From Hydrogenovibrio sp. JE_KL2 (GTDB lineage Bacteria; Pseudomonadota; Gammaproteobacteria; Thiomicrospirales; Thiomicrospiraceae), in the NCBI RefSeq assembly GCF_009296185.1, contig NZ_WBJR01000001.1:682001-746000 (forward strand): a DNA stretch of 64,000 bases, in the 5' to 3' direction. The notes under the pieces are model-generated. The model ran no database searches and was not told the origin of the DNA. It worked only from the letters and a program-made list of their open reading frames with translations. Every line of letters starts with the position of its first letter. The stretch's first letter is position 1. Shown in pieces: positions 27,110-47,054 of the stretch. The translations under genes and the position numbers were made by a program.

Positions 27110-27277
27110 GATTTTTCTCCATTTCTTGGGTTAAGCCTCCGCATCTCCCATCATTCGAACCCTTTTAACAAAGCCGCATGGCTTGGCTTACCGCTATCAG
27201 GTAATTAAGGCACCCCAAATGATGTATTGGAAAGCGTGTGGTTTTTTCTGTTAAAATTGCCATCTAAGTTCGATGGG
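27110..27277 (-). promoter_or_regulatory. rpsB 5' leader, probable S2 autoregulatory region
   Basis: The predicted rpsB transcript begins near 27278, leaving a leader of about 168 nt. Two hairpins are visible on the minus strand: CCATC / GATGG with a 7-nt loop at the very 5' end (27260-27276), and AAGCC / GGCTT with a 4-nt loop (about 27173-27186). In E. coli S2 represses its own operon through a leader of similar length; that this leader binds S2 is inference from position and size. Confidence 0.6.
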
Positions 27278-37231: not shown

Positions 37232-38467
37232 TTACTTTTCCCCTCGCTCGGCATTCGCTAGCTGCTCAAGTTTGACTGAATCTTCCATATAAAGCGTTCT
37301 GGTCGGGAAGGCAATTTCCGCGCCGTAATTATCAATAATTTCCGCTATTTTAAGCAGTATCTTTTCCTTCACTTCATGGTACTCAATCCAAACTGTCGTT
37401 TTGGTAAAAGTGTAAACCAATAAATCCAAAGAAGATGCCCCAAACCCATTGAAACTGACAATCAAGGTTTGGTTACTGTCGATGTCAGGATCTTCCTGAA
37501 GCATCGTTTTAATTTCAGAAGTAATTTTCGACACCTGGCCGATATCACAATATCGAACACCTATCGTTTCCTTGATACGTCTATTGGTCATCCGCGATGG
37601 GTTTTCAATAGAAATGGTGGCAAACATGCCGTTTGGAATATACAGCGGCCGTTTATCAAATGTTCTGACGATCGTCATTCGCCAGCCGATACTTTCTACG
37701 GTTCCTTCAATTTCTTTATCAGGCGATCTAATCCAGTCCCCTGTCACGAAAGGCTTATCCATATAAAGCATCAAGCCCCCCAATACATTACTGACCAAAT
37801 CCTTGGCGGCAAAACCGACAGCGACACCACCAATACCACCAAAGGCGATCAACCCCGTCAGATTAACCCCAAAAGCACTCAACACAACAATACCCGTAAC
37901 AATGAATACCGTCAGCTTGAATATTTTTGCCAACGCCTCAAGTGTTACCGGATCCCATTTGTTATTCGAGCGTTCTAAATGCTTTAAATAACTCTCTATG
38001 CGCTGAACCCAACGAATTGAGAACCAAGCCACCGCAATCAAGGCGAGGGAAGATTTAAAGCCATTAATATAGGGAACGAAATCGGTAAAAACCTTAAAAG
38101 TCACCAGTATCGTGTTCAACGCGAACACTGTACCGGACAACCAGATGTAGAAGGAAAACGGCGACTTCAACGCAACAAAAAAAGTCTTTGCAACTTCCTT
38201 TTTCCGGCGCTGTAGATAGCGAACCACACGAGACAATACCATGCGAATCACAAAATCGATAACAAAGGTAAAGCCTAGAATAATCAGCAACAACAACAGC
38301 CAAACATAAGAGCCAAAAAACTGTGTTAACGCAAGCCAAGTGTCTGGAAACATTTTAATCAGCTCAGAAAATCCTGAAAACGTAATATCCTCAAACAACG
38401 TTGGAGAATGATGCTTCATCGGCTCCGTTACCAAATCAACTGCGGATGGATCTTGCAAACTACTCAT
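37232..38467 (-). CDS. MscS-family mechanosensitive channel
   Basis: A 411-residue channel of the YbdG/YnaI size class, longer than MscS (286). About four N-terminal hydrophobic segments precede the pore helix GGIGGVAVGFAAKDLVSNVLGG (pore-lining Ala/Gly pattern), then the beta domain PFVTGDWI and cytoplasmic vestibule. It relieves turgor on osmotic downshock. It follows nagZ by 8 bp in the same direction. Confidence 0.88.
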   Translation of the reverse strand: MSSLQDPSAVDLVTEPMKHHSPTLFEDITFSGFSELIKMFPDTWLALTQFFGSYVWLLLLLIILGFTFVIDFVIRMVLSRVVRYLQRRKKEVAKTFFVALKSPFSFYIWLSGTVFALNTILVTFKVFTDFVPYINGFKSSLALIAVAWFSIRWVQRIESYLKHLERSNNKWDPVTLEALAKIFKLTVFIVTGIVVLSAFGVNLTGLIAFGGIGGVAVGFAAKDLVSNVLGGLMLYMDKPFVTGDWIRSPDKEIEGTVESIGWRMTIVRTFDKRPLYIPNGMFATISIENPSRMTNRRIKETIGVRYCDIGQVSKITSEIKTMLQEDPDIDSNQTLIVSFNGFGASSLDLLVYTFTKTTVWIEYHEVKEKILLKIAEIIDNYGAEIAFPTRTLYMEDSVKLEQLANAERGEK

Positions 38468-38475
38468 AAAACTTC

Positions 38476-39525
38476 TTACCCTAACAATGCCTGTTGATTG
38501 GATTCGTTAACAAAATGGTTGACCGCGTAAGACTTCGCTTGCCATATTGGGTCTTTATGCAACTGTGAATAGCTTAAGTGCGGCTTGCCGTGTAGGCGGA
38601 TCAGTCTTGCATGAGACAAAACATCCCCTTGCCAGCGAACATTGGCCAAAACATCATCCGCTGCCGTTGAATCATTACAAACCAAAACCAAGTCACAACC
38701 TGCTTCCAAAGCCATTGTCACGCGTTTGGATGGCGTACCGAAAACCTCTGCGGCTTTCATTGACAAATCATCACTGATAATCGCCCCTTCAAAATGACAT
38801 TGCTTACGCAAGACATCTTGCAACCAATGCTTGGAGAAGCCCGCAGGTAATGCGTCCACTTTTGGGTAAATAACATGTGCAGGCATCACCGCCTCCACTT
38901 GATTTTCAATCAAGCGTAAAAATGGCTGTAAATCGTGTTGAGAGATTTCATTGAAACTTCTCTCATCCACTGCAATTTCATAGTGGGTGTCTGCTTCAAT
39001 ATAACCGTGCCCGGGAAAATGCTTTGCAACTGATGCCATGCCCGCTTTATGCATACCATTCATCAAATGCCAGGTTAAGTCAGCCACCACTTGAGGATTA
39101 GAGTGAAATGCACGATCCCCGATGACTCTACTACCACCAAAATCCAAATCAACAACCGGCGCAAAGCTGAAGTCTACCCCTACCGCCAAAAGCTCTGTTG
39201 CCATTAACCAGCCAACATTTGATGCCACTTCTTGTGCCTTATCCGGCGAGGTATCATAAAGCTCACCAATCAAACGCATGGCGGGCAAACGACTAAAGCC
39301 TTCTTTAAATCTTTGTACCCTTCCACCTTCATGATCAACGGCTATCAACAGCCTAGGGTGACGCAAACTATGAATTTCTTGCGTCAGCTTTTGTAACTGC
39401 TCGACTGATTCAAAATGACGAGAAAATAAAATCACTCCGGCAACCAAAGGGTTCATCAGTCGTTCACGATCGACTTCTGTCAGCCGTGTTCCTTCAATAT
39501 CAATCATGACACTACCAAGTGACAT
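38476..39525 (-). CDS. nagZ: Beta-N-acetylhexosaminidase NagZ
   Basis: A 349-residue cytosolic GH3 enzyme that removes GlcNAc from anhydro-muropeptides during peptidoglycan recycling. The signature KHFPGHG is at 168-174 and the family Asp/His pair (Asp179, His181) follows; the nucleophile Asp is in GAIISDDLSM. The frame is open 20 codons further, but the ATG at 39525 has AAGGA six bases upstream and gives the family N-terminus MSLGSVMIDIEG. No signal peptide. It lies directly after two peptide-permease genes and a YkuD gene. Confidence 0.94.
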   Translation of the reverse strand: MSLGSVMIDIEGTRLTEVDRERLMNPLVAGVILFSRHFESVEQLQKLTQEIHSLRHPRLLIAVDHEGGRVQRFKEGFSRLPAMRLIGELYDTSPDKAQEVASNVGWLMATELLAVGVDFSFAPVVDLDFGGSRVIGDRAFHSNPQVVADLTWHLMNGMHKAGMASVAKHFPGHGYIEADTHYEIAVDERSFNEISQHDLQPFLRLIENQVEAVMPAHVIYPKVDALPAGFSKHWLQDVLRKQCHFEGAIISDDLSMKAAEVFGTPSKRVTMALEAGCDLVLVCNDSTAADDVLANVRWQGDVLSHARLIRLHGKPHLSYSQLHKDPIWQAKSYAVNHFVNESNQQALLG

Positions 39526-39608
39526 CGCTTTTCCTTGGATGGTTTTTTCCATAAATTTATCGTACTTTTTCGTGTAACTTTTCAAACATTATAAATAGCT
39601 TTCGGGTA

Positions 39609-39626
39609 AAAACCGAAATCGGTTTT
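39609..39626 (-). terminator. Hairpin between the permease gene and nagZ
   Basis: On the minus strand AAAACCG ATTT CGGTTTT folds into a 7-bp stem ending in T residues. It may reduce transcription from the ABC permease operon into nagZ. Confidence 0.5.
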
Positions 39627-39643
39627 AAAAACCAATTGCGTAG

Positions 39644-40501
39644 TCATTCTCTACGGGATTTTGCTTTAACATCCAAGTGATCTCGCCACTGATCCCCCAA
39701 TAAGTTGACCGCTAAGACCACCAACATCAATGCCAAGCCTGGTGCCAGCACCAAATGTGGCGCAACCAGAAGGTATCGAGTGCCTTCTCTAATCATGCTT
39801 CCCCAAGAAGCATCGGGCGCTTGTACCCCTAGCCCCAAGAAAGAAAGCCCGGCTTCAGAAATCACCGCGCCGGCAATACCAAAGGTAGCCTCAACCCCTA
39901 AAGGAGCCAAGATTAATGGCAACAAGTGGCGCCATAAAATCAAATAGGTCGGTACACCAAAAGCTTTTGCGGCTTGAATGTGCTCACGGTTACGCAAGCT
40001 TAACGTCTGTGCCCGCGCCAATCTCGCGTAACTTACCCAGCCTACCGTTACCAACGCAAAGACAACATTCTCAATTCCCGGCCCTAATATGGCTGCCAAC
40101 GCAATGGCCAACAACAACCCCGGAAAGGCCAAAAAGACATCTATTATCTTTAGAATAACCTTATCCGTCCAACCGCCGACATAAGCACTATAAACTCCAA
40201 TGGTTGTGCCGATAATGGAAGAAAAGACCACAACACCCAACGCCACCAAAAAAGAGGTTTGTGCGCCCATGAGCAGTCTATCCCACACCGGACGACCCAA
40301 CTCATCGTAACCCAACCAGCTTTGATCAACACCAAAAGCCAGTAGTTTCTTCAAATCAATTTGCGTTGCTTCATCCCCGACAAACGCACCCGATACGGCC
40401 ATCATTAACCATAAAAGCACCACCATCAAAGGCAGTACTTTAAAGCTCATCAGATAGTTGCGAAGATCGCGGATAGATTGAAACTGCATTAACCTTATCA
40501 T
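39644..40501 (-). CDS. Peptide ABC transporter permease, DppC/OppC type
   Basis: A 285-residue inner-membrane permease. The N-terminal helix and GYDELGRPVWDRLLMGAQTS segment are typical of DppC/OppC, and the EAA loop contacting the ATPase is at EHIQAAKAFGVPTYLILWRHLLP. I start at ATG 40501, which overlaps the stop of the preceding permease by 4 bp (ATGA); the frame is open 31 codons further inside that gene. It pairs with the DppB-type subunit. No ATPase gene is adjacent. Confidence 0.88.
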   Translation of the reverse strand: MIRLMQFQSIRDLRNYLMSFKVLPLMVVLLWLMMAVSGAFVGDEATQIDLKKLLAFGVDQSWLGYDELGRPVWDRLLMGAQTSFLVALGVVVFSSIIGTTIGVYSAYVGGWTDKVILKIIDVFLAFPGLLLAIALAAILGPGIENVVFALVTVGWVSYARLARAQTLSLRNREHIQAAKAFGVPTYLILWRHLLPLILAPLGVEATFGIAGAVISEAGLSFLGLGVQAPDASWGSMIREGTRYLLVAPHLVLAPGLALMLVVLAVNLLGDQWRDHLDVKAKSRRE

Positions 40502-41421
40502 TTCGCTAAACGTATCCTTGGGTCTAGCCAGGCATAAACCACTTCCGTCAAACCATTCACCAAAATATAAGCCATACTGATAATCAAAATACATGCTTGC
40601 ACAACAGGATAGTCACGACGTTGTATCGACTCCACCAAGAGTTGTCCTAATCCCGGCCAATCAAATACTACTTCGGTGATAACCGCTCCACCCAACAAGG
40701 TACCAAGCTGTAAACCCAACACCGTAATAACAGGCAACATAGCATTCATTAATGCGTGCTTCCCATAAACCGCAGTGCCAGACAGACCTTTTGCCCTTGC
40801 CGTTCGGATAAAATCTTCATGGTAGATTTCCAACAAAGACGCGCGCAACATTCTCGCCAATATCGCAGCCAAAGCCGTTCCCAAGGTGATAGCAGGCAAC
40901 ACCCATGAAAAAGGTTGCTCGGCACCACTCACCGGTAGCAATGACAAACCGATGGAAAACGCTAGAATCAGCATGGGTCCCAACCAAAAATTCGGCACAG
41001 AAACCCCAACCAGTGACACCGTCATGGCCAGATGGTCGGGCCATTTTCCTGCACGGATAGATGCCCAGATACCTAATGGAAAGGCAATCAACACCGCTAT
41101 TAGCAAAGACAGCAACGCCAACTGCAACGTGTAAGGAAAACGATTGGCAATCAACTCGGAAACAGGTTGTTGATAAAACAATGACTGACCAAAGTCCCCC
41201 TGGACGATACCTGTCAGATAATGAATATATTGCTGAAATAGCGGCAAATCCAAGCCCAATTGATGACGCAGTGCATCAGCATCAGCCGGACTCGCCCAAT
41301 CACCTAACATGACTTCAACAGGGTCACCCGGTACCAGATGAATCAAAAAGAAGACCATCGAACCGACGACCCAGGAAATGAAGATAAGCGAACCTACCAA
41401 ACGAACGAGGTACTGGATCAT
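40498..41421 (-). CDS. Peptide ABC transporter permease, DppB/OppB type
   Basis: A 307-residue permease with about six hydrophobic helices. The family features are LVRLVGSLIFI at the start, HLVPGDPVEVMLGDWASP, and the EAA loop DFIRTARAKGLSGTAVYGKHALMNAMLPV (key residues E/R/A-K-G). It lies 18 bp after the YkuD gene and overlaps the DppC-type gene by 4 bp. With the lipoprotein at 42633-44168 it makes up all but the ATPases of a dipeptide/oligopeptide importer. Confidence 0.9.
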   Translation of the reverse strand: MIQYLVRLVGSLIFISWVVGSMVFFLIHLVPGDPVEVMLGDWASPADADALRHQLGLDLPLFQQYIHYLTGIVQGDFGQSLFYQQPVSELIANRFPYTLQLALLSLLIAVLIAFPLGIWASIRAGKWPDHLAMTVSLVGVSVPNFWLGPMLILAFSIGLSLLPVSGAEQPFSWVLPAITLGTALAAILARMLRASLLEIYHEDFIRTARAKGLSGTAVYGKHALMNAMLPVITVLGLQLGTLLGGAVITEVVFDWPGLGQLLVESIQRRDYPVVQACILIISMAYILVNGLTEVVYAWLDPRIRLAK

Positions 41422-41439
41422 TAAACAATCGCCCCATTC

Positions 41440-41919
41440 TTAAGCATTGACGATTTCCACTTCACAACCAATAGGCACCCTATCAAATAACTCCATCACA
41501 TCTTCATTACGCATACGAATACAGCCGTGCGACAACGCAACACCCATTGGTTCGCTATCTGGCGTGCCATGAATGTAAATATAACGCTGCATCGTATCTT
41601 GATTGCCTAAACGATTTGTCCCTTTTTCCAGGCCAGACAACCATAATATGCGGGTCAATATCCAGTCTCTATCCGGGAACTGTTGTCCCAAAGCATCGCT
41701 ATAGATTTCTTCCGTTGGGCGTCGCCCAACAAAAACACTGTTGATAGGCAATCCATCACCAATCTTTGCACGAATCTTGTGCTTACCTAAAGGCGTTTGC
41801 CCCGAGTTTTTTTCATTGCCTACACCCGCCAAACCCGTGCTCACAGAATAACGCTTAACTTCTTTTTCGCCATCAAGCAACGTTAAAGTCTGTTGTGGAA
41901 TGGAAATGAGAATCTTCAA
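41440..41919 (-). CDS. Signal-less YkuD-domain protein, probable cytosolic L,D-carboxypeptidase (ElsL/LdtK-like)
   Basis: A 159-residue protein that is a single YkuD domain. The catalytic motif is complete: His117-Gly118 (IHGTP) and Ser130-His-Gly-Cys133-Ile-Arg135 (SHGCIRM). There is no signal peptide or membrane helix; the protein begins MKILISIPQQTLTLLDG, the first domain strand. The start is TTG at 41917-41919 with only a weak ribosome site, and no other start fits. Most YkuD proteins are exported L,D-transpeptidases; small cytosolic ones in Acinetobacter trim the terminal D-Ala from recycled murein tetrapeptide. The neighbours (peptide permeases, nagZ) support the latter role here. Confidence 0.8.
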   Translation of the reverse strand: MKILISIPQQTLTLLDGEKEVKRYSVSTGLAGVGNEKNSGQTPLGKHKIRAKIGDGLPINSVFVGRRPTEEIYSDALGQQFPDRDWILTRILWLSGLEKGTNRLGNQDTMQRYIYIHGTPDSEPMGVALSHGCIRMRNEDVMELFDRVPIGCEVEIVNA

Positions 41920-41950
41920 AATAAATTATCCGGATGCATTAAATTCGTTA

Positions 41951-41969
41951 AAAATCTACCAGGTTGGGG
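41951..41969 (+). repeat. Dispersed 19-bp repeat, copy B (singlet, one mismatch)
   Basis: Plus strand AAAATCTACCAGGTTGGGG, one substitution from the other copies. It lies in the 75-bp gap between the YkuD gene and the DUF2238 gene. Confidence 0.75.
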
Positions 41970-41994
41970 TAAGAACCACTCTTTAAAGTTTATA

Positions 41995-42630
41995 CTAACG
42001 ACTTGAAAAATAAAGCAATTGCTGATCATGCCGCTTAGACAAAGTCATTAGCGCAACGATACCACCAATCAATGCAAACAACATATCGGTTTGCGTGTCC
42101 CATTCATCACCCTGCGTTCCGAGAAAGGCTTCGGCACCCGTTTTCAAAATCATCGCCGCACTCCATTCTACCAACTCGTAAAATGCGCTGAAAGCCAATA
42201 CAAAACAGACGATAAAAAAGCTCATCCATGCCTTGGATGAAAACACTTTTTGCCTTAGAAGTAATTCTCTAGCAATCATTGCAGGTACAAACCCTTGCAG
42301 AAAGTGCCCTATCTTGTCGTAATTGTTCCGAGTCTGTTGCAACCAATGCTCTAAATCTGAAAACAACGGAACTTCTGCATAGGTGTAATGAGCGCCGACC
42401 ATCAAGACAATGCAATGCAGTAAAATCAGCCAATATACCAATGGGGTGATACCGACAATCACTCGATAACGTATCACCAACACAAAACCAATTAAAGCAG
42501 GTAGCGCTTCCATCCACCATGTAGGCCAGTCTTTGGGATGATAGATTGACCATAACAAGACCGCGATGAATATCCCAGCCCATAAACCAACTGCACCATG
42601 ATAATGTTCTTTACGAGTCACCGTCGGCAT
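41995..42630 (-). CDS. DUF2238 / YjdF-type inner membrane protein
   Basis: A 211-residue polytopic protein with about six hydrophobic helices. Recognisable segments are NNYDKIGHFLQGFVPAM, FELVEW-like SAFYELVEWSAAM, and LGTQGDEWDTQTDMLFALIGG, all typical of the family. Function unknown. The ATG at 42630 is 2 bp after the stop of the binding-protein gene; a TTG two codons earlier overlaps it. It sits inside the transporter operon, between the lipoprotein and the YkuD gene. Confidence 0.82.
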   Translation of the reverse strand: MPTVTRKEHYHGAVGLWAGIFIAVLLWSIYHPKDWPTWWMEALPALIGFVLVIRYRVIVGITPLVYWLILLHCIVLMVGAHYTYAEVPLFSDLEHWLQQTRNNYDKIGHFLQGFVPAMIARELLLRQKVFSSKAWMSFFIVCFVLAFSAFYELVEWSAAMILKTGAEAFLGTQGDEWDTQTDMLFALIGGIVALMTLSKRHDQQLLYFSSR

Positions 42631-42632
42631 AT

Positions 42633-44168
42633 TCAAACCATTTTTTTGACTTTAAGCAGCCCATCAAAACGGCCATCAGAATACAGTTGATAGCCTTCGA
42701 CCCCCTTTCTCATAACCGCATACTGATTTTCATACCACAAAGGCATCGCCGCCAGTGTATCTTGTAAATGACGTTGCAGCTGTCGATAGAGTTTCGCTTC
42801 TTCTGCTATGGATTGTGCCTCTCCTGCTTCACGAATCAAGGTGTCCGCTTCCGCGTCACGATAACGCCCTCGGTTCGCTCCTCTAGGCGGAATCGCATTC
42901 GAGTCAAACACATACTGAAAAATATCCGGGCTCTTAATACCGACCCAAGCAAGGCTATAGAGCTGGAAACGCCCTTTTTTAATATCGCTGTAAAAGGTTC
43001 CCCAATCATAACTTTGAATATCAAGCGCGATACCGATTTTCTTCAACTCGGCTTGGTAGATGGTCGCCAATCGAATCCGCGTTGGGTCAGATGAGGTTTT
43101 ATAGCTCAACTGGATTTCTCCAGCTTCGTTTAGATAAGGTTTGATTAAATCGGTTTGTTTTCTTAGCTCCGACAACAACGCTCGGGCTTTATCAGGATCA
43201 TAATCAAACCCTTTTAAATCAGGTACACCGCACCAATGCTCCGGCACCAATAACCCGCCAGCCAAACGCGCTTCGCCAGCGAACAGCGTATCAATTATCA
43301 ATGGTCGATTAATCCCGTGCGCCAGCGCCTGCCGCATCTCAAGTTTGGATAACAAAGGATCTTCAAAATTAAAGCCGATATAGGCAAAGCTGGTACCGAA
43401 ATGAGACGACACAACCAAATCATCACGGTGATGGCAGTAGTTCAACAATTCAGGCGACAAATCGTTTTGTATGAGGTCCAGTTCTCCTTTACGGAGTTTC
43501 AACACCCTGACGGTAGCATCCTTAACGGGAATGAATTCCAGCGTTGTTTTATCTGGCCGTTGTAAAACAAGCCTTTGTTCGTCCATAGAGAGAAAACGAC
43601 AGGCGCCACAACCAACAGGCTTTGACAAAAACGAACGACCTTGTTCAACCAAGTCTTTCGGCAAAATACCGATGACCAAACGACCAACAAATAACGTATC
43701 CGGGTGTGCTAAATGAAAATCAAACTGGCTGTCGTTAAGTGCTACAACTGAAGTGATATGCTTCAACGATCCTCTTAGCGGCGAGCCTTGTTTAGGATTC
43801 AGAATCGAGTCGAATGTCGCCACCACATCTTCAGAAGATAATCGCTTACCATGGTGAAACTTTGGACGATCTTTGAGTGTAAAGCGATATTGTGTTGGTG
43901 AAATCATTTCCCAAGTCGCTAAATCTGGAATTGGCTCAAAGGACTCGTTGAAATCGATTAATTGGCGATAAATCAGGCGGTTCAGGCGGCTCGACAACGC
44001 ATCTGTCGCTTGCCTAGGGTCTAACACACGTGTTCGTGAGGTAACGCCCACTAGAATTTGGCTAGCACTGGACTGAGTTTCGCAACCCGCCAATAGAGAT
44101 ATGGATGGCAAAACTGCTAAGCCCGCCAGTCCACTAGAAGTTCGTTTAAAAAAAGTTCGCCTATCCAT
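42633..44168 (-). CDS. Peptide ABC transporter substrate-binding lipoprotein (family 5)
   Basis: A 511-residue DppA/OppA/MppA-type binding protein. The N-terminus MDRRTFFKRTSSGLAG looks like a twin-arginine signal and ends in a lipobox, LLAG-Cys29, so it is probably a lipoprotein. Family 5 features: an N-terminal lobe DLATWEMISPTQYRFTLKD then HHGKRLSSEDVVATF, a QALAHGINRPLIID segment and the C-terminal RYRDAEADTLI motif. It heads the minus-strand group with DUF2238, YkuD, DppB, DppC and NagZ. Substrate not provable; murein peptide is the contextual guess. Confidence 0.88.
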   Translation of the reverse strand: MDRRTFFKRTSSGLAGLAVLPSISLLAGCETQSSASQILVGVTSRTRVLDPRQATDALSSRLNRLIYRQLIDFNESFEPIPDLATWEMISPTQYRFTLKDRPKFHHGKRLSSEDVVATFDSILNPKQGSPLRGSLKHITSVVALNDSQFDFHLAHPDTLFVGRLVIGILPKDLVEQGRSFLSKPVGCGACRFLSMDEQRLVLQRPDKTTLEFIPVKDATVRVLKLRKGELDLIQNDLSPELLNYCHHRDDLVVSSHFGTSFAYIGFNFEDPLLSKLEMRQALAHGINRPLIIDTLFAGEARLAGGLLVPEHWCGVPDLKGFDYDPDKARALLSELRKQTDLIKPYLNEAGEIQLSYKTSSDPTRIRLATIYQAELKKIGIALDIQSYDWGTFYSDIKKGRFQLYSLAWVGIKSPDIFQYVFDSNAIPPRGANRGRYRDAEADTLIREAGEAQSIAEEAKLYRQLQRHLQDTLAAMPLWYENQYAVMRKGVEGYQLYSDGRFDGLLKVKKMV

Positions 44169-44238: not shown

Positions 44239-45654
44239 CTACTGAGTGCTGTCACTACCGGCATCTACCGGCGGATTCGCGTCGTCAACAGGGTCGGATA
44301 AAATACTGTCATATCTTTGCAGTTTATCAGCATCTAGCGTGCCCACTGCCGCCTCTAATTTCAAACGGCTCAATACAACATTTTGTAACGACTGCGCCAA
44401 GTTACGTCTTGCTTGGAACTTATTGGTACGCGCGGTTAGGACTTCCAACAAGTCTTTCAAGCCGACTTTGTAACCTTCTTCTGCTGCTTCAAGGAAAGCA
44501 TCATTCGATTTCACCGCAGCACGGTTAGCGGCGACTAATTCAACGCCTCTTTCAACATTACGCACTTGAACACGCGCATTCAACTTGGCGTTTTCTCTAG
44601 CGTCACGCACCCCGATTTCCGCTGCTTGATAGTTTGAACGAGCTTGTGAGACCAATGCTGACGTTCCACCACCTGAATATAGCGGCAAAGAAGCGACAAT
44701 ACTGGCACTCAGGTTATTCGGATATTGAGAACTGGACGAATAACTCGGGATAGCCGACCCTTCAGTATGCTCATATTGTGCTTGTAAGCTTAGATTGAAC
44801 CAATGCCCTGACTTCTGAACTTCAACTTCTTCACCAGCGACCTTAGCCTGTTCTTCTGCTTGCAGCACCGTCAAGTTACTATCTTGGGCTTGTTGTTCAT
44901 AGGTATTGATATTCAATTTAGGTTGAGGCAGCTTCACACTTAAAGCGATGACTTTTAAGTCTTTTACAGGCTTGCCCGTCAACTTAGTCAGCTCTTCGTA
45001 AGCCACATCCAAATTGTTCTCCGCAGAAATGCGATCAGATTTTGACAAGTCAAAACTCGACTTGGCTTGCAATACATCTGTCCTGCTCGCCAGACCAACC
45101 TGAGCGGAAGCTTTAGCGCGATCCCATTGCGTCTCGTCGGCCTTCTCTTTCGCCTTCGCCAGTTTGACATCTTCCTGCGCCAGCAGCACTTTGAAATAAG
45201 CATCTGCCACCCGAACAATAATGTCTTGCTCCGCGCTTTTAATCGTGTATTCGGCCTTCTTCAAACTATATTGCGCTTGAGAATACTTTGCCCAGGAATC
45301 ATGCTGGTAAAGCGACTGCTTCAAAGTGATATCAGCGGTTTTGGTATCCACTGCTTTTTCATTCACATAGCTATCATTATAGGCTGCATTGGCACTAATT
45401 TGAGGTAATAACGAAGCACGTGCGATTTTGACTAATTGTTGATTGGCCTGATAGGTCGCTTGAGCCTGCGCCAAAGTCGCATCATGGGCAACAGCCATCT
45501 GGTAAACATCAAACAGGCTATAAGCCGCTTGCGATTGAAAAGAAGTCATCGTTAAACCGGCAGCCATCATGCTGGAGATCACTAATGTGACGGCTTTCTT
45601 TTTAAATGGATTTCCCATTGATTCAACGGAATTATTCAAAGCAGTTTTTTTCAT
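44239..45654 (-). CDS. tolC: TolC-family outer membrane channel
   Basis: A 471-residue outer-membrane efflux protein. A long N-terminal region with signal peptide ends at about FQSQA-A. Two TolC repeats follow, with long helical stretches (about 55-250 and 270-440) and the barrel strands NAAYNDSYV and SLQAQYEHTEG. TolC docks with RND, MFS or ABC pumps and type I exporters. Of three tandem starts (GTG-ATG-ATG) I take the last ATG, 5 nt after GGAG. It overlaps the upstream CYTH gene by 23 bp. Other TolC-family members are possible, and no pump gene is adjacent. Confidence 0.88.
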   Translation of the reverse strand: MKKTALNNSVESMGNPFKKKAVTLVISSMMAAGLTMTSFQSQAAYSLFDVYQMAVAHDATLAQAQATYQANQQLVKIARASLLPQISANAAYNDSYVNEKAVDTKTADITLKQSLYQHDSWAKYSQAQYSLKKAEYTIKSAEQDIIVRVADAYFKVLLAQEDVKLAKAKEKADETQWDRAKASAQVGLASRTDVLQAKSSFDLSKSDRISAENNLDVAYEELTKLTGKPVKDLKVIALSVKLPQPKLNINTYEQQAQDSNLTVLQAEEQAKVAGEEVEVQKSGHWFNLSLQAQYEHTEGSAIPSYSSSSQYPNNLSASIVASLPLYSGGGTSALVSQARSNYQAAEIGVRDARENAKLNARVQVRNVERGVELVAANRAAVKSNDAFLEAAEEGYKVGLKDLLEVLTARTNKFQARRNLAQSLQNVVLSRLKLEAAVGTLDADKLQRYDSILSDPVDDANPPVDAGSDSTQ

Positions 45655-46138
45655 CATCACTCCAAGTTGTATATGGCTTTTGAGTCAGACTGATATTGTA
45701 ATAACGAACGATATTCGTCACTTCGCGTCCAATCCATTCAGGCAGTTCCAGCGCTTCATCTTCGCTGTCTAGTTCCACTTCTGCGACAATCAGTCCGTCA
45801 TTATCCCCTAAAAATTCGTCGATTTCCCAGGTATGTTCTTCAATGTCTACTAAATAACGCACCTTCTCGATCACAGGGCCAACCGCAAGGGTTTTTAGCA
45901 TTTTTTCGGCATCTGAAACATCAATCGGATATTCATATTCATCCCGACTGAGACCAATTTCCAAACTCTTGATATTGATCGTTGCTTCATCCCCCTCTAA
46001 ACGGATGCGAATGGAGCTTTTGCTTCCCGGCTGTTGAATATCATTCAAGTAGCCTTGAGCCATGTGCGTTTTCTTTTTCGCAAGCTGTTTCCAGTCAAAG
46101 TTTGCGACCAGAAACTTTCTTTCAATCTCTCTTGCCAT
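45632..46138 (-). CDS. CYTH-domain protein (triphosphate tunnel metalloenzyme)
   Basis: A 168-residue CYTH protein. The ExExK signature (Glu4, Glu6, Lys8) is at the N-terminus in MAREIERKFLV, followed by GSKSSIRIRLEGDEATINIKS and WEIDEFLGDNDGLIVAEVEL, the basic and acidic strands of the tunnel. Bacterial members are usually inorganic triphosphatases. The frame is open 27 codons upstream into cysM, but MAREIERKFL is the family start. Linked to tolC by a 23-bp overlap. Confidence 0.88.
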   Translation of the reverse strand: MAREIERKFLVANFDWKQLAKKKTHMAQGYLNDIQQPGSKSSIRIRLEGDEATINIKSLEIGLSRDEYEYPIDVSDAEKMLKTLAVGPVIEKVRYLVDIEEHTWEIDEFLGDNDGLIVAEVELDSEDEALELPEWIGREVTNIVRYYNISLTQKPYTTWSDDEKNCFE

Positions 46139-46160
46139 ATTTTTATATTTTCTTCTGTAT

Positions 46161-47054
46161 TTAGTTTTTTGGGTCAAAAACACCCGTTGAAAGGTAACGA
46201 TCCCCTCTATCGCAAACAATAGTCACGATCAGCGCATTTTCCGTTTCATTGGCAATTTGCAAGGCTGCTGCCATCGCACCACCAGATGATACACCAGCGA
46301 AAATACCCTCTTCTTTCGCCATGCGTTTCATAGTGTCTTCCGCAAGGGCTTGCGACATATCGATGGTACGGTCTACACGTGAGTCGTCATAGATACTGGG
46401 CAGATATTCTTTCGGCCAACGACGAATGCCGGGAATGGAAGAACCTTCTGTGGGTTGCACACCCACCACCTGAATATCGGAATTTTGTTCTTTAAGGTAC
46501 ATGGAGGTTCCCATAATGGTTCCCGTCGTCCCCATGGCACTGACAAAATGCGTGATTTTGCCTTCCGTTCCATTCCAAATTTCCGGGCCGGTGGTGAAAT
46601 AGTGCGACAATGGGTTATCCGGGTTGGCAAATTGATCCAAAACCGTTCCTTGCCCTTCTGCCTGCATCTTCTGCGCAAGATCACGGGCGCCTTCCATGCC
46701 TTCTTCCTTCGACACCAAAATCAATTCAGCACCATAGGCAGCCATAGAAGCTTTGCGCTCCATGGACATATTGTCCGGCATAATCAATTTCATCTTATAA
46801 CCCAACATCGCGGCAACCATCGCCAAAGCAATCCCCGTGTTGCCACTGGTCGCTTCAATCAGCGTATCACCCGGCTTGATTTCTCCACGCAGTTCGGCCT
46901 GCTTAATCATATTTAGCGCAGGTCTGTCTTTCACCGAACCGGCTGGATTATTGCCTTCAAGTTTTGCCAGAATCACACTATTGGTATTCGCATTCACCAA
47001 ACGTTGGATTTTAACCAAAGGGGTGTTTCCAACCACATCCATTAAGGTTTTCAT
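46161..47054 (-). CDS. cysM: Cysteine synthase B
   Basis: A 297-residue PLP enzyme that makes cysteine from O-acetylserine and sulfide or thiosulfate. The PLP Lys42 is in NNPAGSVKDRPA and the substrate loop is EATSGNTGIAL. The fit is to CysM rather than CysK: GSSIPGIRRWPKEYLP and the short C-terminus ending after DRGDRYLSTGVF. Thiosulfate use would suit a sulfur-oxidising host, which is inference. Confidence 0.93.
   Translation of the reverse strand: MKTLMDVVGNTPLVKIQRLVNANTNSVILAKLEGNNPAGSVKDRPALNMIKQAELRGEIKPGDTLIEATSGNTGIALAMVAAMLGYKMKLIMPDNMSMERKASMAAYGAELILVSKEEGMEGARDLAQKMQAEGQGTVLDQFANPDNPLSHYFTTGPEIWNGTEGKITHFVSAMGTTGTIMGTSMYLKEQNSDIQVVGVQPTEGSSIPGIRRWPKEYLPSIYDDSRVDRTIDMSQALAEDTMKRMAKEEGIFAGVSSGGAMAAALQIANETENALIVTIVCDRGDRYLSTGVFDPKN

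Follow-up and report, generated by a model that had tools for sequence, protein, structure and literature searches.

Relation to described recycling systems

In Agrobacterium tumefaciens, muropeptides are imported by the ATP-binding cassette (ABC) transporter YejBEF with the binding protein YepA, which together take the place of AmpG. According to the part of that report available to us, this import governs wall integrity and β-lactamase induction, and YepA occurs only in Alphaproteobacteria (PMC9790009). In Acinetobacter, L,D-carboxypeptidase activity is known for ElsL (PMC8649774, PMC9239154), whose substrate is supplied by AmpG (PMC9239154; both articles as far as they were accessible). Here, we analyse a candidate recycling operon at positions 38476-44168 of a 64,000-nucleotide stretch (the window) of the genome of Hydrogenovibrio sp. 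JE_KL2 (2.44 Mb in 15 contigs). The operon encodes a substrate-binding lipoprotein, a DUF2238 membrane protein, a short YkuD protein, a pair of Opp-type permeases and NagZ. Sequence comparisons lead us to propose that the binding protein and OppBC probably import whole anhydromuropeptides, standing in for AmpG.

The proposed importer resembles YejBEF-YepA (again from the accessible part of the report) in being an ABC system for muropeptides that depends on a substrate-binding protein and is found where AmpG is missing, a role that is proposed here and was shown there. The two are also alike in that the gene for the binding protein does not adjoin an ATPase gene and that a YejF-like ATPase is present in the genome. 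The window differs in having its own OppB/OppC pair rather than YejB/YejE, in an operon that is shared with ElsL and NagZ, and in its use of what is probably another binding protein than YepA. Compared with AmpG-LdcA recycling in Escherichia coli, NagZ, AmpD and AnmK are kept, whereas AmpG, a major facilitator superfamily permease, and LdcA (family S66) gave no match, and an ABC importer and ElsL are proposed in their stead.

As for ElsL/LdtK of Acinetobacter baumannii, the YkuD protein is signal-less, has ElsL as its best NCBIfam match and belongs to a genome without LdcA; here, however, it lies in an importer operon, of which the accessible parts of the two articles make no mention (PMC8649774, PMC9239154). 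The combination of a family 5 binding protein with Opp-type permeases, for which a murein-derived cargo is proposed, recalls MppA with OppBCDF in E. coli. Unlike that system, the binding protein is distant from MppA, OppD and OppF are absent from the operon and the proposed cargo is a disaccharide-peptide or an anhydro-N-acetylmuramic acid (anhMurNAc)-peptide. Our search of the open-licence literature, at the level of titles and the openings of abstracts, found neither an importer of this kind in Gammaproteobacteria nor an operon with this set of genes. Within that literature, the question of how muropeptides enter bacteria that have AmpD, NagZ and AnmK but lack AmpG is answered only for some Alphaproteobacteria. 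The operon provides a concrete candidate importer for many Gammaproteobacteria, paired with ElsL as a substitute for LdcA.

A conserved ElsL-OppB-OppC-NagZ block

In the open reading frame (ORF) list all six genes are minus-strand, and their order and short gaps agree with a first-pass annotation of the window. The gene for the binding lipoprotein (42633-44168; 511 residues; Pfam SBP_bac_5, E = 6e-57), the proposed muropeptide receptor, overlaps that for the DUF2238 protein (41995-42636; Pfam DUF2238, 6e-53) by 4 bp. The YkuD gene (41440-41919; 159 residues; YkuD, 4e-25) follows after 75 bp and OppB (40498-41421; BPD_transp_1) after a further 18 bp. OppC (39644-40501; BPD_transp_1) and NagZ (38476-39585), a β-N-acetylhexosaminidase, complete the series, with 58 bp between them.

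Forty stretches around short YkuD genes were compared: eight picked from other families and 32 from the family of the window, the latter representing all of its further genomes except one that is 84% complete (G027). ElsL lies beside OppB in all 32 family stretches, OppC comes next in 31 and NagZ is found in 30. One of the stretches (L057) ends within OppB; another (L070) has its OppB match in two pieces and no NagZ match in the 1.7 kb that remain of the contig. The binding protein is encoded in the same stretch as ElsL in 23/32. Outside the family, one genome without AmpG (G043) has the complete order and a genome of the other-family set (G044) has the same order interrupted by 3.6 kb, while ElsL-OppBC was found in G054 and the binding protein with ElsL in G048. 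In G035, G037 and G052, which are AmpG-positive and lack the binding protein, ElsL and NagZ are neighbours or are separated by 1 kb, and OppBC does not intervene; in the stretch from G050 no query matched.

When named genomes were scanned for relatives of the binding protein, 326 were obtained, of which the best 80 were kept. At 52 of these 80 loci the downstream sequence extends for at least 8.5 kb; ElsL is present in 40 of the 52, OppB in 36 and NagZ in 29. The order ElsL-OppB-OppC-NagZ therefore recurs beyond genus and family, which is more than chance would give, and the four genes form a conserved block that bears out the recycling operon proposed in the first-pass annotation. The co-occurrence of all six genes that it had envisaged stands for the block and, at the lower frequency given above, for the binding protein. 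It fails for DUF2238, which is present in just 5/32 further family stretches, being otherwise at another site or absent in the family, and in none of the best 80 of the 326 loci, a scan that may omit the closest relatives of the window. We therefore reject DUF2238 as part of the system and regard it as an add-on, a lineage-specific insertion outside the core.

The best NCBIfam match of the YkuD protein is the ElsL model NF040925 (1.8e-63, 213 bits). Since this score is below the cut-off of 270 and the model is of type 'exception', the protein is termed ElsL-type here rather than a strict member of the model. Its reading frame opens only two codons upstream of the TTG start, which leaves no room for a signal peptide, and the SHGCIRM motif is present; the first-pass annotation was right on both counts. 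Judged by the frame and by Pfam, in which YkuD is the sole domain, the 159-residue protein has no signal peptide, transmembrane helix or peptidoglycan-binding domain, and its size falls within the range 105-200 residues. In 19 aligned relatives Ser130, Gly132 and Cys133 are invariant, and the His and Arg of the motif are at least 90% conserved. The protein is thus predicted to be an ElsL-type cytosolic L,D-carboxypeptidase. NagZ contains the GH3 N-terminal domain (PF00933), has the KHFPGH and SDD motifs and passes the NF003740 model (471 bits, cut-off 207).

Recycling genes and the distribution of the binding protein

Recycling genes were surveyed in 55 genomes, 34 from the family (that of the window included) and 21 from outside it, with E. 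coli as a positive control that was matched for both LdcA and AmpG. LdcA (PF02016) was found in none of the 34 family genomes and in one of the 55 overall, so the expected absence of ldcA is confirmed. AmpG (TIGR00901) gave no match in the window genome and none over the cut-off in the 34 family genomes, in which the only weak matches are in G009 and G031 (24 and 140 bits); outside the family it was matched in 19/21 genomes, in 18 of them over the cut-off.

AnmK acts on anhydroMurNAc in the cytosol. In the window genome it is encoded at C11:76560 (1.9e-119) and AmpD at C1:354527 (3.5e-82). AmpD and NagZ degrade imported anhydromuropeptides (PMC9790009, in the part available). As AmpD and AnmK are kept although AmpG is absent, something must bring anhydromuropeptides into the cell, and this combination favours the import of whole anhydromuropeptides over that of free peptide as with MppA. 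The absence of AmpG, which is our main clue, had not figured in the first-pass annotation, nor had the lack of an ATPase in the operon described below.

The distribution of the binding protein was assessed in 151 genomes of the class, approximately one per family. It was called at 510 bits or above (46 genomes) and in one further genome (G102) in which it is split over two contigs (235 and 219 bits); the next match is at 208 bits or below. Roughly one in three of the gammaproteobacterial genomes sampled (47/151) thus has the binding protein. AmpG was called at an E value of 1e-40 in 114/151 genomes, 100 of which are over the curated cut-off.

The two distributions are complementary: the binding protein is present in 26/37 AmpG-negative genomes compared with 21/114 AmpG-positive genomes (p = 1.2e-8; Fisher tests here and below are on raw genome counts, with kinship ignored). 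When AmpG is counted only over the cut-off, the figures are 29/51 genomes without AmpG and 18/100 with it (p = 2e-6). Because an absence in a draft genome may be false, a count was also made for genomes with a completeness of 90% or more and a contamination of no more than 5%, which gave 19/28 and 19/103, respectively (hand count; p = 1.3e-6). Of the AmpG-negative genomes, AmpD over the cut-off is found in 25/26 that have the binding protein but in 4/11 that do not, and AnmK in 23/26 and 3/11, respectively. The AmpG-negative genomes therefore mostly have the binding protein or lack AmpD too. Among the AmpD-bearing genomes, the binding protein is present in 25/29 without AmpG and in 20/101 with AmpG (p = 9e-11).

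The binding protein, the permeases and the ATPase

In an alignment of 55 binding-protein sequences Cys29 is invariant; 44 of the sequences agree with a loose lipobox pattern and 22 with a twin-arginine pattern. The closest named relatives, among the best 80 of 326, are from Thiomicrorhabdus, Hydrogenovibrio, Thiomicrospira and Sulfurivirga. An AlphaFold2 model based on the 55-row alignment (predicted local distance difference test score, pLDDT, of 92.4) has the common family 5 fold; a conserved loop at approximately residues 426-433 is its least certain region. NikZ ranks first with Foldseek and second with VIA-align 2, where the top place goes to a family 5 protein of Bacillus. Also high in the fold search are DppA and a sialic-acid-binding protein, with MppA further down. 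What the search with the model returns is the general family 5 fold, and a fold of this kind does not fix the ligand.

By sequence, MppA (3o9p, 4toz) matches the binding protein with an E value of 1.6e-30, 41st among the chains listed, and by Foldseek it ranks 25th, with 16-17% identity in the fold alignment. With its low rank in both lists, MppA is not a close relative, and import as by MppA, which the first-pass annotation had suggested, steps back as the main reading. These comparisons also bear on an alternative in which free murein tripeptide or tetrapeptide released by amidases is imported as by MppA-OppBCDF and trimmed by ElsL, with NagZ a mere neighbour. Such a route would be in keeping with the Opp-type permeases, the family 5 binding protein, the position of ElsL next to the importer and the fold shared with MppA. 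It is at odds with the distance from MppA, and it leaves unexplained both the persistence of AmpD and AnmK without AmpG and the presence of NagZ as a constant downstream gene in the family, and we consider it to be unlikely. Of the earlier proposal of peptide import followed by trimming inside the cell, the recycling importer is kept, while free peptide is now the less likely cargo.

Among the NCBIfam models, OppB passes Opp2B (359 bits, cut-off 350) compared with 125 bits on YejB, and OppC scores 258 bits on Opp2C compared with 88 on the microcin C permease model. The window permeases are therefore not of the YejB/YejE families but are GsiC/NikB-like. No ATPase is encoded in the six-gene operon, and the stretches around the best 80 of the 326 binding-protein relatives gave no match above 31% identity to the Yej-like ATPase described below; within the stretches compared there is thus no Opp-type ATPase beside the importer.

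Opp-type ATPases were counted by the oligo_HPY domain (PF08352), matches to which are weak in this family and which misses any ATPase without the domain. On this count they are present in 34/34 family genomes, 33 of which have exactly two OppB-type permease matches (PF19300), with one in G027 (84% complete). In the window genome both PF08352 matches fall in a single 558-residue frame at C1:608 kb, approximately 111 kb from the operon on the same contig. This fused ATPase has YejF as its nearest match (629 bits, cut-off 834), and its gene follows those for a second binding protein and two more permeases; the window permeases are 26-29% identical to these two. We infer that the YejF-like ATPase may serve both permease pairs. 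The second importer as a whole (L098 4205-10435, C1:603-609 kb) comprises the binding protein, the two permeases and the fused ATPase; its binding protein has 724 residues and, by eye, a C-terminal hydrophobic segment, and genes resembling fabI and phosphoenolpyruvate synthase flank it (by eye).

Proposed pathway and its assessment

In the pathway that we propose, in which the substrate, the direction of transport, the sharing of the ATPase and the enzyme activities are all inferred, lytic transglycosylases would release anhydromuropeptides (N-acetylglucosamine-anhMurNAc-peptide; GlcNAc-anhMurNAc-peptide) in the periplasm, where the binding lipoprotein would capture them. OppB and OppC would then carry them across the inner membrane, powered by an ATPase encoded elsewhere, for which the fused YejF-like protein is the best candidate. 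In the cytosol NagZ would remove GlcNAc and ElsL would trim the tetrapeptide to the tripeptide for re-use, the step taken by LdcA, and AmpD and AnmK, encoded elsewhere, would complete the stripping and salvage. Loss of the binding protein is predicted to lead to leakage of muropeptides.

This sulfur-bacterial operon would couple two recycling enzymes with an ABC importer; to judge from its patchy distribution, the importer may act in place of AmpG in many bacteria. We put at about even the chance that it represents an undescribed ABC muropeptide importer, borrowing its ATPase and welded to ElsL and NagZ, that constitutes a second ABC-type substitute for AmpG, with relatives of its binding protein extending to genomes labelled Nitrospirota. 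As muropeptide import governs wall integrity and β-lactamase induction in Agrobacterium, a widespread second importer, if real, would alter the way in which recycling pathways are deduced from genome sequences.

A number of observations weigh against this reading. The 21 AmpG-positive genomes that carry the binding protein show that it is not a strict AmpG substitute, and strict replacement is ruled out. OppB follows the binding protein in 18/25 AmpG-negative genomes, but also in 10/21 AmpG-positive genomes (sampled class genomes counted by hand in stretches of unequal length, with G102 left out). Four AmpG-negative genomes (G070, G096, G111 and G176) have AmpD over the cut-off and no binding protein, and two more without either AmpG or the binding protein (G086 and G155) have AmpD matches below the cut-off; G070 and G111 have other Opp-type genes in further stretches. 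Within the family, the gene for the binding protein is not near ElsL in 9/32 stretches, and no short ElsL-like match was found in the 84% complete genome G027. In nine loci titled Nitrospirae, Nitrospirota, Nitrospirales or Nitrospinota (L166, L169, L170, L177, L186, L193, L195, L204 and L206) a relative of the binding protein occurs with OppB and OppC, but without ElsL beside it and without an ATPase in the stretch; no recycling gene was recognized there by eye, no profile search having been made in these loci.

The Opp2B model that OppB passes carries the name nickel permease, and with Foldseek the binding protein matches NikZ best. Both would suit a different arrangement, in which the separate Yej-like four-gene system is the muropeptide importer and that of the window takes up an unrelated solute, for example nickel chelates or dipeptides. 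The closeness of the fused ATPase to YejF points the same way, as does the import of muropeptides by YejBEF in Agrobacterium (PMC9790009, as far as available). Opp-type ATPases, however, are common with and without AmpG (35/36 AmpG-negative genomes, 34 of them from one family, compared with 15/19 AmpG-positive genomes), whereas the window binding protein tracks the absence of AmpG. The linkage of ElsL and NagZ would also be left unexplained, and we judge this arrangement to be quite improbable.

A further point concerns kinship. A binding-protein tree was computed from 46 rows, 43 of which were labelled (G102 was left out because of its fragments, and three genomes with weak AmpG matches were unlabelled). 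It is poorly resolved: the AmpG label needs ten changes on the tree, of which supported branches force only two. The label is clustered, with 7/500 shuffles as low, and part of the pattern is therefore due to shared ancestry. An AnmK tree calculated by a quick method for 112 of the 122 AnmK-bearing genomes (ten were dropped as fragments or weak matches) gives just three independent pairs on supported branches, too few for significance. On average, the binding protein differs as predicted in 1.3 of these pairs, in the opposite sense in 0.0 and not at all in 1.7; the reverse test on this tree gave two independent pairs.

The scarcity of usable pairs and of supported branches and the clustered label speak for shared ancestry, in which an old cluster would have stayed together where AmpG was lost for unrelated reasons, with no functional link between importer and recycling. 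Against this stand the sampling of approximately one genome per family, the preservation of the block across families and the retention of AmpD, which splits the AmpG-negative genomes by presence of the binding protein. Ancestry as the whole explanation appears highly improbable, and import of anhydromuropeptides in place of AmpG is the reading that we prefer.

Start sites and neighbouring features

The start of OppC is uncertain: the listed ORF begins at 40594, but the start is at ATG 40501 or 40489 rather than there. For NagZ, the profile match begins at residue 23, and the true start may be an ATG at approximately 39525 instead of the TTG at 39585. A gene for an MscS-family channel (37232-38467, minus strand) starts 8 bp past NagZ and is possibly in the same transcript; it has no role in the proposed mechanism. 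A matching gene is present in 21/32 family stretches.

A t44 RNA (Rfam RF00127, 53 bits) lies outside the operon at 27130-27258 on the minus strand; it was the sole RNA family match in the Rfam scan of the window, and a tRNA search found none. Upstream of the binding protein, at 45632-46219 (minus strand), is a gene that occupies the same position in many loci, beyond the family as well as within it, and that we take to be a CYTH-domain gene (NCBIfam gave no match). In two genomes from another genus of the family (G012 and G021), three genes lie between the binding protein and ElsL (L055 5158-7793 and L064 5238-7798); by eye, they resemble the AmmeMemoRadiSam set.

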